Shown: in pieces, positions 32,520 to 36,311 of the stretch
Layout of the letters: each line of letters begins with the position of its first letter
Numbering within the stretch: the stretch's first letter is position 1
Source of the DNA: an uncultured Anaerolineales bacterium
GTDB lineage: Bacteria > Chloroflexota > Anaerolineae > Anaerolineales > UBA4823
Reading direction: 5' to 3'
Assembly (NCBI GenBank): GCA_903872065.1
Contig: CAIQJJ010000830.1
Coordinates: 1-36,311, forward strand
DNA: 36,311 nt
Position numbers and translations under genes: made by a program
The notes under the pieces: model-generated
Seen by the model: only the letters and a program-made list of their open reading frames with translations
Told to the model about the DNA's origin: nothing
The model's database searches: none

Positions 32520-32571
32520 GGCAGCTCCTGGGGGAATATGTTTCGTTTTTTAATCTTTCGTCAATTATACC

Positions 32572-32625
32572 TTTACAACCTCTTAAAAAGTCGTTATCCT
32601 TTTGTTAACCTTGATCGATTATCCT
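32572..32625 (+). promoter_or_regulatory. Pho-box-like array (four 11-bp repeats) and -10 box before the response regulator gene
   Basis: TTTAC, TTAAA, TTATC and TTAAC begin at 32572, 32583, 32594 and 32605, an exact 11-bp period. TATCCT at 32620-32625 begins 15 bp after the last repeat start and serves as -10. No -35 consensus exists, as for PhoB/PhoP-activated promoters. The next gene encodes the PhoB-type regulator, so this is a candidate autoregulatory site. The predicted leader before the ATG at 32645 is short. Confidence 0.75.
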
Positions 32626-32644: not shown

Positions 32645-33352
32645 ATGACCACGATTTTGCTTGTCGAAGATGAACCTGGTTTGCAAGAAGCCCTGATCTA
32701 CAACTTGCAGCGCCAGCAGTATACCGTCGAAGCCGTCGGCGACGGGCAGGCGGCGGTAGAAGCGGCGCGCCGCCTCCACCCCAACCTGGACTTGATCATC
32801 CTGGATGTGATGCTGCCCAGGCTGGATGGCTTTGAGGTCTGTCGCATCTTGCGCCAGGAGATGAGCATCCCGATTGTGATGCTCACCGCCCGCGATGACG
32901 AAATTGATCGCGTGGTCGGTTTGGAGATCGGCGCGGATGATTACGTCACCAAGCCGTTCAGCATGCGCGAATTCCTCGCCCGCATCAAGGCCCACTTGCG
33001 CCGCGAGCGCCGTTTGCAGGCCGACAGCGCCGCGGCGGACGCTGCCGCCAACGAGGTTTTGCGCTTCAATAATTTGACCATTGACCTGACCCGCCGTGAA
33101 GTAGCGTTGAACAACATCCCACTGGCTTTGAAACCCAAAGAATATGAGCTGCTTTTGTTCCTGGCGCAGCGGCGCGGGCAGGCGCTCTCGCGCGAGCGGC
33201 TGCTCGAATACGTTTGGGGCTGGGAGTTTAGCGGCAACACCCGTACAGTGGACGTGCATGTCCGCTGGCTGCGGGAGAAAATTGAACCTGACCCCTCGCA
33301 GCCTGTGCGCATTGTCACGGTGCGTGGGTCGGGCTATCGTTTTGAAGGTTGA
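32645..33352 (+). CDS. OmpR/PhoB-family response regulator, PhoB/PhoP-like
   Basis: A 235-residue DNA-binding regulator. The receiver domain (1 to about 120) has the acidic pair E8/D9 in LLVEDE, phospho-acceptor Asp54 in [13 protein letters not shown], Thr81 and Lys103 in [12 protein letters not shown]. The C-terminal winged helix (about 135-232) shows [20 protein letters not shown] and [20 protein letters not shown]. The histidine kinase gene begins 5 bases after its stop, and pstS follows. Direct repeats with an 11-bp period occur before both this gene and pstS, the expected target type for a PhoB/PhoP protein. A phosphate-starvation regulator is therefore the best reading; a cell-envelope (WalR-type) role is the main alternative. 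Confidence 0.92.
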
Positions 33353-33357
33353 TATTG

Positions 33358-35133
33358 ATGTTTCGTTCGATCCGCTGGCGCATCGCCTTACCCTATGTCA
33401 TTTTGATCCTGGCCTCCATGCTGGCCCTGGGTGTGATCTTATCCAATTTTCTGCGGCAGATTTACCTGGACGATCTGGAAGCGCAGTTGGCGACGGAGGC
33501 GCGCCTGGTGGGCGAGGCGCTTCGTCCGCTTTTGGAGCATTCTGTTGGCGCGCCTGCCAACGGCGAATCCGCCGCCCCCTTGATCGAGCAGGCCGCCAGG
33601 GAATGGGCCAAAACTCTGGGGGCGCGCCTGACGATCATTGCCCTAGACGGCGTTGTCTTGGGCGAGTCGGATGACGACCCGGCGTTGATGAGCAATCACG
33701 CCGATCGCCCGGAGGTGATTGCCGCCCTGCGCAGCGGGCAGGGCAGCAGCATCCGCTTCAGCCACACCCTGGGTTATGATATGCTCTATGTGGGAGTGGC
33801 TTTTCCGAATCCACAAAACCCGCTGGCTGTTATTCGTGTAGCCGTCGCACTTAATCGCATCCAATCTCACCTGGCTCAATTGCAAGGCATCTTGTTCAGC
33901 GCTACTCTGTTTGTGGCCGTCCTGGCGGTGTTGCTGGCCGCCTGGATTGCCGCCCGCGCCTCGAGTCCTCTGCAGCAGTTGACCCATGCAGCGCGCCAGA
34001 TGGCAGCCGGCGAATTGAGCGACCAGCCGGCAGCGGTCAATATTGATGAGATCGGCCAGTTGACCCAGGCTTTTAACCAGATGTCTGTCCAACTGCGCCA
34101 GCAGTTTCGCACGCTGGAGACAGAGCGCGGGAAGCTGTCGGCTGTGCTGCAAAAGATGAGCGACGGTGTGCTGATTGTAGACCAGCAGGGTCTGGTGCAA
34201 CTGCTCAACCCGGCGGCAGAGCGGATGCTCAGCCTGCTGGCGCGCGAGGCGGTCGGCTCGCCGCTGGCAGAAGCGGTGCGCCATCATCAGCCCTTTGAGG
34301 TCTGGCGGCAGTGCCAGGAGACCGGCGAGGGCCAGCAGGCGACATTTGAATTCAGCCGGCGGATTGTCTTGCAGGTTGTCGCCACGCCGCTCGACCAGGC
34401 CCTGCCTGGCAGCATCCTTTTGCTTTTCCATGATATGACCCGCCAACGCCAGATCGAACGCCTGCGGCGCGATTTTATCAGCAATGTTTCGCACGAACTG
34501 CGCACCCCCCTGGCTGCGCTTAAGGCGCTCACTGAAACGCTGCGCGATGGCGCGCTGGAAGACCCCCCGGCGGCGCGCCGCTTTTTGGCGCGCATGGAGA
34601 CCGAGGTGGACGCGTTGAGCTTGATGGTGGCTGAACTTCTGGAATTGTCGCGCATCGAGTCCGGGCATGTGCCGCTGATGCTGCAGCCCACCGCGCCGAT
34701 GGAAATTGTCGGCCCGGCTTATGAGCGCTTGTGTTTGCAGGCTGAGCGCGCAAACCTCTCGCTGACCGTCGAATGCGCGGAGGATCTACCGGATGTGTTG
34801 GCGGATGCCGGGCGAGCGCAGCAGATTGTAGTCAACCTGCTGCACAACGCTATTAAATTTACACCGGAGAATGGCCAGGTGATTGTCGCGTGTGAACCTC
34901 AAGGGCGTTTTGTGTGTTTCTCGGTGCGCGATACGGGCATCGGCATCTCGGCTGAGGATTTGCCGCGCATCTTTGAGCGTTTTTACAAGGCCGACCGTTC
35001 GCGTTCCAGCGGCGGCACAGGATTGGGCCTGGCGATTGCGCGCCACCTGGTCGAGGCGCATGGGGGCAAAATTTGGGCCGAGAGCCAACTTGGGCAGGGC
35101 AGCACGTTCAGTTTCACTATTCCAATCGCCTGA
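33358..35133 (+). CDS. Sensor histidine kinase, PhoR/WalK-like
   Basis: A 591-residue membrane kinase, partner of the preceding regulator. TM1 is at about 9-30, an extracytoplasmic sensor domain at about 31-176 and TM2 at 177-199. HAMP follows at about 200-252, then a PAS domain at about 258-365 ([20 protein letters not shown]). The HisKA domain has phospho-acceptor His379 in [16 protein letters not shown]. The ATPase domain shows the N box [11 protein letters not shown] (493-503), G1 DTGIGI (525-530), F box RIFERFYK and G2 GTGLGLAI (553-560). The ATG at 33358 is preferred; GAAGG lies about 9 bases upstream. The large sensor domain makes it look more like WalK/PhoR of Gram-positives than short E. 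coli PhoR. Confidence 0.93.
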
Positions 35134-35152
35134 ATCAGTTCATTCTTATGAT

Positions 35153-35198
35153 AGTGCGGCATTTATGGTGTAACCAAAAACACCGTAAATGCCGCACT
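35153..35198 (+). terminator. Long hairpin after the histidine kinase gene, probable terminator
   Basis: A 19-bp stem (35153-35171 and 35180-35198, core AGTGCGGCATTTA) with one G-U type mismatch and an 8-base loop. The tail GTTTGTT is a weak U-run. It separates the two-component operon from the Pho-box array of pstS, so pstS should depend on its own promoter. Confidence 0.7.
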
Positions 35199-35203
35199 GT
35201 TTG

Positions 35204-35279
35204 TTAACCAAATCATAACAATCCATTGAATGAATGTTAACCACCCCTTACCCTGTTGTTAAACGCTCGGGAGTATCCT
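35204..35279 (+). promoter_or_regulatory. Six-unit Pho-box array and -10 box before pstS
   Basis: TTAAC, ATAAC, TTGAA, TTAAC, TTACC and TTAAA begin at 35204, 35215, 35226, 35237, 35248 and 35259, a constant 11-bp step. TATCCT at 35274-35279 begins 15 bp after the last unit, as in front of the response regulator gene; TAGACT at 35280-35285 is an alternative -10. There is no -35 consensus. The array should bind several dimers of the PhoB-like regulator. Confidence 0.85.
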
Positions 35280-35318
35280 TAGACTGTAAAAAATAAACTA
35301 TCTACGAGAGGATTATGT

Positions 35319-36311
35319 ATGAATACATATCGCAAATTCAACCTTTTATTCGCAGGCATCGCCATCTTGACGCTGATCTTGAGCGCCTGCGGCAGTTCCG
35401 CCGCCATTGCGCCGGCCACTGCAGTTCCCGCCAAATCTGAACCCACCGCAACCATCGCGGCTGCGCAGCCCACTGCCACGACAGCTTCAGCGAACACTGG
35501 TGTGGCTTTACCCGAGGTAGACCCGGCGACTGTCTCCGGTAATATTGTCGCCGCGGGTAGTTCCACCGTCTATCCCTTGGCGGAAGCCCTGGCCGAACGT
35601 TTCAAGGATGAGGGCTTTGCCGGCAATGTCACCATAGACAGCATTGGCTCCGGCGCGGGTTTCGAGCGCTTCTGTAAAACCGGCGAAACCGATATTGCCA
35701 CCGCTTCGCGCAAAATCAAAGACGCCGAGATCGAAAACTGCAAGGCGATTGGCCGCGCGCCGCTCGAGTTCCGCGTCGGCACTGACGCGATTGCCTTCGT
35801 GGTGAGCGGCGAGAATGATTTCCTGAAGGATGTCACCCTGGCGGAACTGGCGAAAATCTTTTCCAAAGACGCCGTTAAGTGGTCGGACGTGCGCCCCGAA
35901 TGGCCGAACGAAAACATCCTGCGCTTTTCTCCCGGCACCGACTCGGGAACATTTACTTACTTTGTCGAAAACGTGATGGCCCCGGCTTATAAGAACGCTG
36001 AAGGCAAAGCCGATGTGGAAACGGGCAAGAAGGCCCTGCTCGATGCGGCGAATATCCAATTCTCTGAAGATGACAATGTGCTGGTGCAGTGGGTTGTAGG
36101 CTCCAAATACGCCATCGGTTATTTCGGCTTTGCTTACTTCTCTGAAAACCAGGGCAAGCTCAAGGCCATTTCTTTGAATGGCATCGCGCCTTCCTTCCAG
36201 ACGGCTGAAGATAACACCTATCCCATGTCGCGCCCCTTGTTCATCTACTCGGACGCCAAAATCCTGAAGGACAAGCCCCAGGCAGCCGCCTTCGTCAACT
36301 TCTTTCTGACG
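35319..36311 (+). CDS. pstS: Phosphate ABC transporter substrate-binding lipoprotein PstS (3' end outside the window)
   Basis: The first 331 codons are inside the window. The signal peptide has Arg/Lys near the start, a hydrophobic core and lipobox LSAC with Cys24, then a Ser/Ala/Thr/Pro-rich linker to about residue 70. The PstS domain begins with NIVAAGSSTVYPLAEALAER and contains the phosphate-binding signatures SIGSGAGFERFC, DIATASRKIK and RFSPGTDSGTFTYF. The protein lies on the outer side of the membrane and delivers phosphate to PstCAB, whose genes probably follow beyond the window. The start at 35319 is chosen because it gives the signal peptide; an ATG at 35315 is in another frame. AGAGG lies upstream. 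It is preceded by a six-unit Pho-box array. Confidence 0.93.
   Translation, partial: MNTYRKFNLLFAGIAILTLILSACGSSAAIAPATAVPAKSEPTATIAAAQPTATTASANTGVALPEVDPATVSGNIVAAGSSTVYPLAEALAERFKDEGFAGNVTIDSIGSGAGFERFCKTGETDIATASRKIKDAEIENCKAIGRAPLEFRVGTDAIAFVVSGENDFLKDVTLAELAKIFSKDAVKWSDVRPEWPNENILRFSPGTDSGTFTYFVENVMAPAYKNAEGKADVETGKKALLDAANIQFSEDDNVLVQWVVGSKYAIGYFGFAYFSENQGKLKAISLNGIAPSFQTAEDNTYPMSRPLFIYSDAKILKDKPQAAAFVNFFLT

Follow-up and report, generated by a model that had tools for sequence, protein, structure and literature searches.

The 185-bp intergenic region that precedes a pstS-type gene in an uncultured Anaerolineales bacterium (Chloroflexota) carries six direct repeats with an 11-bp period which, judging from their sequence context, very probably form a PhoB/PhoP-type Pho box, the target of a phosphate-starvation activator. 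The gene lies at the end of the stretch of 36,311 bp that we analysed as a whole (hereafter, the window; Table 1). The conservation of the repeats, the phosphate genes that follow them, and their constant 15-bp offset to a -10-like hexamer lead us to place this Pho box at a -10 promoter, covering its -35 region. Since the same layout is found before phosphate genes across the Chloroflexota, we regard it as the version that this lineage has of a known switch and not as a new kind of system.

Table 1 Features of the window around the two repeat arrays.
Feature	Position	Strand	Evidence or remark
Second six-unit 11-bp array, before response-regulator gene	32550..32609	+	TTAAT, TCAAT, TTTAC, TTAAA, TTATC, TTAAC; score 24/30
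-10-like TATCCT of second array	32620..32625	+	15 bp after start of last unit (TTAAC 32605)
OmpR/PhoB-family response regulator gene	32645..33352	+	Response_reg and Trans_reg_C domains
Sensor histidine kinase gene, PhoR/PnpS/WalK-like	33349..35133	+	HAMP, PAS, HisKA, HATPase
Hairpin with 22-bp stem, between kinase gene and array	35150..35201	+	-36.8 kcal/mol, z -8.2
Six-unit 11-bp-phased array before pstS, predicted Pho box	35203..35264	+	Direct reading, period scoring, 14/14 family orthologues
-10-like hexamer TATCCT	35274..35279	+	15 bp from start of last unit; predicted -10
Shine-Dalgarno-like GAGAGGA	35306..35312	+	Precedes pstS ATG at 35319; direct reading
pstS-type phosphate-binding lipoprotein gene	35319..36311	+	Runs off contig end; TIGR02136, PF12849

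The intergenic region (35134-35318) separates a sensor-kinase gene from the pstS-type gene, the product of which scored 233.8 bits against TIGR02136 (cut-off 206.6). Direct reading of the array gave the pentamers TTAAC (35204), ATAAC (35215), TTGAA (35226), TTAAC (35237), TTACC (35248) and TTAAA (35259), with an exact 11-bp register throughout. The claims of an earlier note on this DNA, namely six TTAAC-like pentamers in 11-bp phase without a slip and then a TATCCT at 15 bp from the last pentamer start, were therefore borne out. Scored against TTAAC, the array matched 25 of 30 letters. Shuffling the intergenic region 20,000 times with a first-order Markov model gave 22 at best, and shuffling the whole window 200 times gave 21 at best; among the periods 6 to 24 scored across the window, none except 11 exceeded 20. 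The array thus has the tandem direct repeats with 11-bp period typical of Pho boxes, although Tandem Repeats Finder did not detect it because its units are too divergent. Only two of the six pentamers are exact TTAAC, and this weakness of the single units would suit a chance or AT-rich low-complexity repeat devoid of function. Such an origin is practically untenable against the shuffle tests, the conservation across genomes and the coherence of the downstream genes, and the conservation data already refute it.

Other elements were seen in the window. Two tandem 11-bp copies of AATTGTTAAGA, possibly due to chance, occur at 2011-2033 upstream of a minus-strand gene (355-1941). The hairpin that precedes the pstS array lacks a clear T-run and might be a terminator; no counterpart appeared in the intergenic regions read from relatives, and we rejected the hairpin as a dispersed repeat given its single copy in the genome.

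Conservation before pstS orthologues had been proposed as a check in the earlier note, and it proved complete in the family wherever upstream DNA could be read. A search with the pstS protein, run on 37 further genomes from the family, showed the array at the same offset in all 14 orthologues with readable upstream DNA (that of the window included), in contrast with none of the 14 paralogous binding proteins retrieved by the same search. Distances between TT.A[AC] motifs in the family upstream regions peaked at 11, 22 and 33 bp. Nine pstS arrays and the array before the regulator gene could be aligned without gaps: the GTTAA of the last unit and a TANNNT at an offset of exactly 15 bp were invariant in these 10 arrays, which served for training, the third unit was usually TTGA(C/A), and the fifth was the weakest. 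In the loci of one genus (g19; L013-L017), register with the -10 is kept by the units at -48, -37 and -15 but lost by 1-2 bp in the fifth and outer ones. Close PstS relatives in MAGs labelled as Verrucomicrobia and Spirochaetaceae (L208, L214) lack the array, which may reflect transfer or misbinning.

For scans of genomes we used R1, a sequence-only profile that includes the -10, and R2, a shorter core model. As R1 contains the -10, spacing measured on its own matches is biased, so we used a gene-anchored control in which canonical PstS genes were located by TIGR00975 alone and their upstream DNA was then inspected. A phased array whose TTAA stands exactly 15 bp ahead of TA...T preceded eleven of the 13 genes, while shuffles predict 0.0; arrays at other offsets from 9 to 23, or on the reverse strand, were not found at these loci. 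Five of the 11 arrays overlap R1 matches and the others are new. The same arrangement appeared in a third, named collection upstream of most pstS relatives from Anaerolineae and other Chloroflexota. Thus, as in known Pho boxes, the most downstream repeat takes the place of the -35 and keeps a constant distance to the predicted -10.

We aligned 65 R1 sites that did not belong to the training set, in which the 15-bp offset is not independent since they were selected with R1. Four units hold the information: counted from the -10, TTNAC stands at -48, (C/T)GTTAAC at -37, (C/T)GTTAA at -15 and, between the last two, a weak TT at -26. A G at -2, present in 71% of the sites, is suggestive of a promoter of the extended -10 type that would depend on an activator. 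The two outer units are strong mainly in the family of the window and some neighbours, and are poor in information across the wider set. Order-wide, the conserved element is a core of four units set at a constant 15 bp from the -10, the outer two units being mainly a family feature. We therefore rejected the six units as a lineage signature: the earlier note was right in seeing here the Pho box of a lineage, as its conservation indicates, but what is conserved is the four-unit core and not the six-unit form.

This geometry also bears on the direction of control. The overlap of the units with the -35 region makes it conceivable that the bound regulator blocks RNA polymerase instead of recruiting it, and some Streptomyces PhoP sites do repress. 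However, there is no conserved alternative -35, the frequent G at -2 points to activator dependence, and the spacing matches that of activated E. coli promoters, in which 10 bp separate the boxes from the downstream -10 (PMC1906773); a phosphate repressor site is thus very improbable. A TTGAC of the third unit was also considered as a -35 element and rejected, since the -10 is 48 bp further downstream.

The regulator-kinase pair encoded directly upstream is our candidate to act on an activator site of this type. The regulator has a receiver and a winged-helix domain, and the kinase a HAMP-PAS-HisKA-HATPase architecture. Both proteins are below every NCBIfam equivalog cut-off shown, including those of PhoB (219, cut-off 296.2), PhoR (274.5, cut-off 334.2) and PnpS (347.9, cut-off 400); the best-scoring equivalogs are YycF/WalR for the regulator (240.9, cut-off 340) and WalK for the kinase (406.9, cut-off 725). 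With such scores, the PhoBR name and the phosphate role of the pair are based on context, that is, on synteny and on the co-occurrence of array and regulator. In the family, the array co-occurs with the regulator orthologue (13/22 vs 1/16, p 0.0016, uncorrected for relatedness and genome completeness), and one genome (G003) has a complete syntenic operon regulator-kinase-array-pstS-pstC-pstA-pstB-phoU, with the pst and phoU names read from translations. RegX3 of Mycobacterium tuberculosis (2oqr), a phosphate-responsive regulator, is the closest solved structure to ours over the whole length (E 2e-60), a likeness by protein sequence similarity alone.

The next-best independent array of the window, also of six units, is located directly upstream of the regulator gene. 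Both R1 and R2 were trained with it, so its matches to these models are not independent. With the same -10 offset as the pstS array, it makes it probable that the regulator gene is controlled by its own product, which presumably binds both arrays. This second array was not found upstream of the family orthologues of the regulator gene other than that of the genome under study, three or four loci being unreadable, a result that speaks against the Pho box reading; a member of another family (G042) does have one.

Alternatively, another OmpR-family regulator encoded elsewhere, for instance WalR/YycF- or MtrA-like, might bind the array, the adjacent pair not being cognate. The top scores of the pair, even if sub-cut-off, are indeed those of YycF and WalK, many OmpR-family paralogues are probably encoded in the genome (249 first-look candidates), and WalR boxes likewise have an 11-bp period. 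Nevertheless, the genes that follow the arrays are phosphate genes and not cell-wall genes, which together with the YycF score below the cut-off does not fit a WalR/YycF regulon. Moreover, the pair directly precedes the array in many relatives, the array is also found before the regulator gene both here (G000) and in G042, and its presence tracks the regulator orthologue, all of which renders this alternative improbable and favours a Pho box served by the adjacent pair.

Under the Pho box reading, the kinase would activate its partner regulator when phosphate is low, and the phosphorylated regulator would bind the array head to tail, each DNA-binding domain on one 11-bp unit and each dimer on two. 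The last unit would cover the place of the -35 and end ~10 bp before the -10, a placement from which the bound regulator could recruit RNA polymerase through sigma and turn pstS on. The promoter-proximal unit would then hold sigma instead of a -35 element. In relatives, the whole pst operon would be switched on in the same way, and the array before the regulator gene would provide positive autoregulation.

The earlier note had also suggested scanning Chloroflexota relatives for phased arrays before pst, pho and ugp genes, and the scans strongly support its expectation. In the order, 54 of 251 genomes had an R1 site at E<=0.001, with ~0.25 chance matches expected (the E-values being rough); more than 60 sites were recovered in relatives, nearly all of them preceding phosphate genes. 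In the phylum, 24 of 400 genomes had a site, eleven of them outside the order, with ~0.4 chance matches expected from the same rough E-values. The array therefore shares with Pho boxes its location before pst/pho genes and its conservation there in relatives. Four non-training sites (G002, G006, G008, G009) sit between the regulator-kinase pair, which they directly follow, and a canonical PstS gene of another type, and others are found before canonical pstS (G003, G034), a UgpA-like permease (G034), SurE (G002, G013) and an arsenate-reductase-like protein (G010), with a weak match (E 0.107) before a 2-aminoethylphosphonate transaminase (G002).

The first genes downstream of the 65 aligned sites encode PstS (36), SurE (6), methylglyoxal synthase (4), PHP-domain proteins (3), PhoU (2-3) and a membrane protein without name (2), in addition to one each of PhoB, CHAD, GntR, ArsC-like, UgpA-like and surface-polysaccharide-like proteins and five of no known kind. 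These labels were read from translations, those of CHAD and GntR by translation alone; one representative each of PhoU, SurE, MgsA, PhnW and PstS passed NCBIfam cut-offs, whereas for the UgpA- and ArsC-like proteins these names are the best matches but fall short of the cut-off, as do the family matches of the PHP-domain protein. The surE gene, for a 5'/3'-nucleotidase, has Pho-type arrays upstream in several families of the order (L114, L115, L168, L176, L178, L093, L102). The four arrays before methylglyoxal synthase (L145, G317:C1:1298405; L127, G346:C1:707683; L137, G332:C16:14711; L139, G376:C19:13884) have at least four CCTTAAC-type units and the same -10 offset, and come from members of the phylum with small genomes (0.9-1.8 Mb); this enzyme might be a phosphate-releasing bypass under Pho control. 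Arrays also precede a membrane protein of ~215 aa without any NCBIfam match (L172, G194:C186:93442; L091, G031:C29:9948), a candidate member of the phosphate regulon.

In the genome under study, R1 and R2 both find the same two strong sites. R2 had been expected to reveal more, and added only a weak third one (L087, G000:C315:4645-4689), with four phased units before a gene for a 245-aa membrane protein and no -10 at 15 bp. So small a number of sites counts against the Pho box reading.

The lineage consensus, the strict promoter geometry and the list of candidate regulon members are what this work adds. A phylum-level Pho box and promoter geometry would serve the Chloroflexota, which are widespread and genetically little studied, by making genes of phosphate limitation predictable from sequence, such as surE, PHP-domain hydrolases, arsC-like, phnW, ugpA-like and methylglyoxal synthase genes. 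The most surprising candidate is the last, found in relatives with small genomes; if truly controlled in this way, the enzyme would release phosphate from triose phosphate during starvation. It is possible, though less likely than not, that the phylum at large shares one strictly measured phosphate promoter, defined by the core of four units, the third of them weak in a conserved way, the fixed 15-bp offset and the extended -10, perhaps with a distinct arrangement of regulator and polymerase and with unusual regulon members such as methylglyoxal synthase. Our search of the open literature on Chloroflexi and 'Pho box' found no paper devoted to the subject by its title; an earlier computational description is possible, given the Chloroflexi collection of RegPrecise 3.0.

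Pho boxes made of 11-nt direct repeats are textbook knowledge (PMC4415409), and the consensus unit found here, GTTAAC(C/A), resembles the known units CTTAACCT and GTTCACC. For the Bacillus PhoP consensus, our open literature search retrieved no statement. The E. coli PhoB boxes are likewise 11-bp head-to-tail repeats placed ~10 bp before the -10 (PMC1906773, PMC4415409), but their unit is CTGTCAT and at least two units are described. In Streptomyces, PhoP also binds multi-unit arrays of 11-nt direct repeats, with a unit, GTTCACC (PMC4415409), that is one base from GTTAACC, its core being TTCAC instead of TTAAC. Units overlap the -35 region in Streptomyces glpQ1 and glpQ2, and S. coelicolor pitH2 has four core and two less conserved units within a 64-nt footprint (PMC7866108). 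Hence, the two to four units that the earlier note gave as usual do not exhaust the known range, as longer arrays (six units at pitH2) had already been described. Streptomyces pstS itself has two units (PMC7866108, PMC2605767), whereas the array described here shows a weak fifth unit and a fixed -10 offset. The cyanobacterial SphR box, three copies of CTTAACCT with 3-bp linkers before pst and phosphatase genes (PMC1906773), shares with our array the TTAACC core, the 11-bp period and at least three units; three are described there, whereas here the core has four units, of which the third is degenerate, and is joined by two outer units in the family. The departure from the E. coli and Streptomyces consensus claimed in the earlier note thus stands for the CTGTCAT of E. 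coli, but the Streptomyces unit differs by only one base and the cyanobacterial one, to which the note makes no reference, is close.
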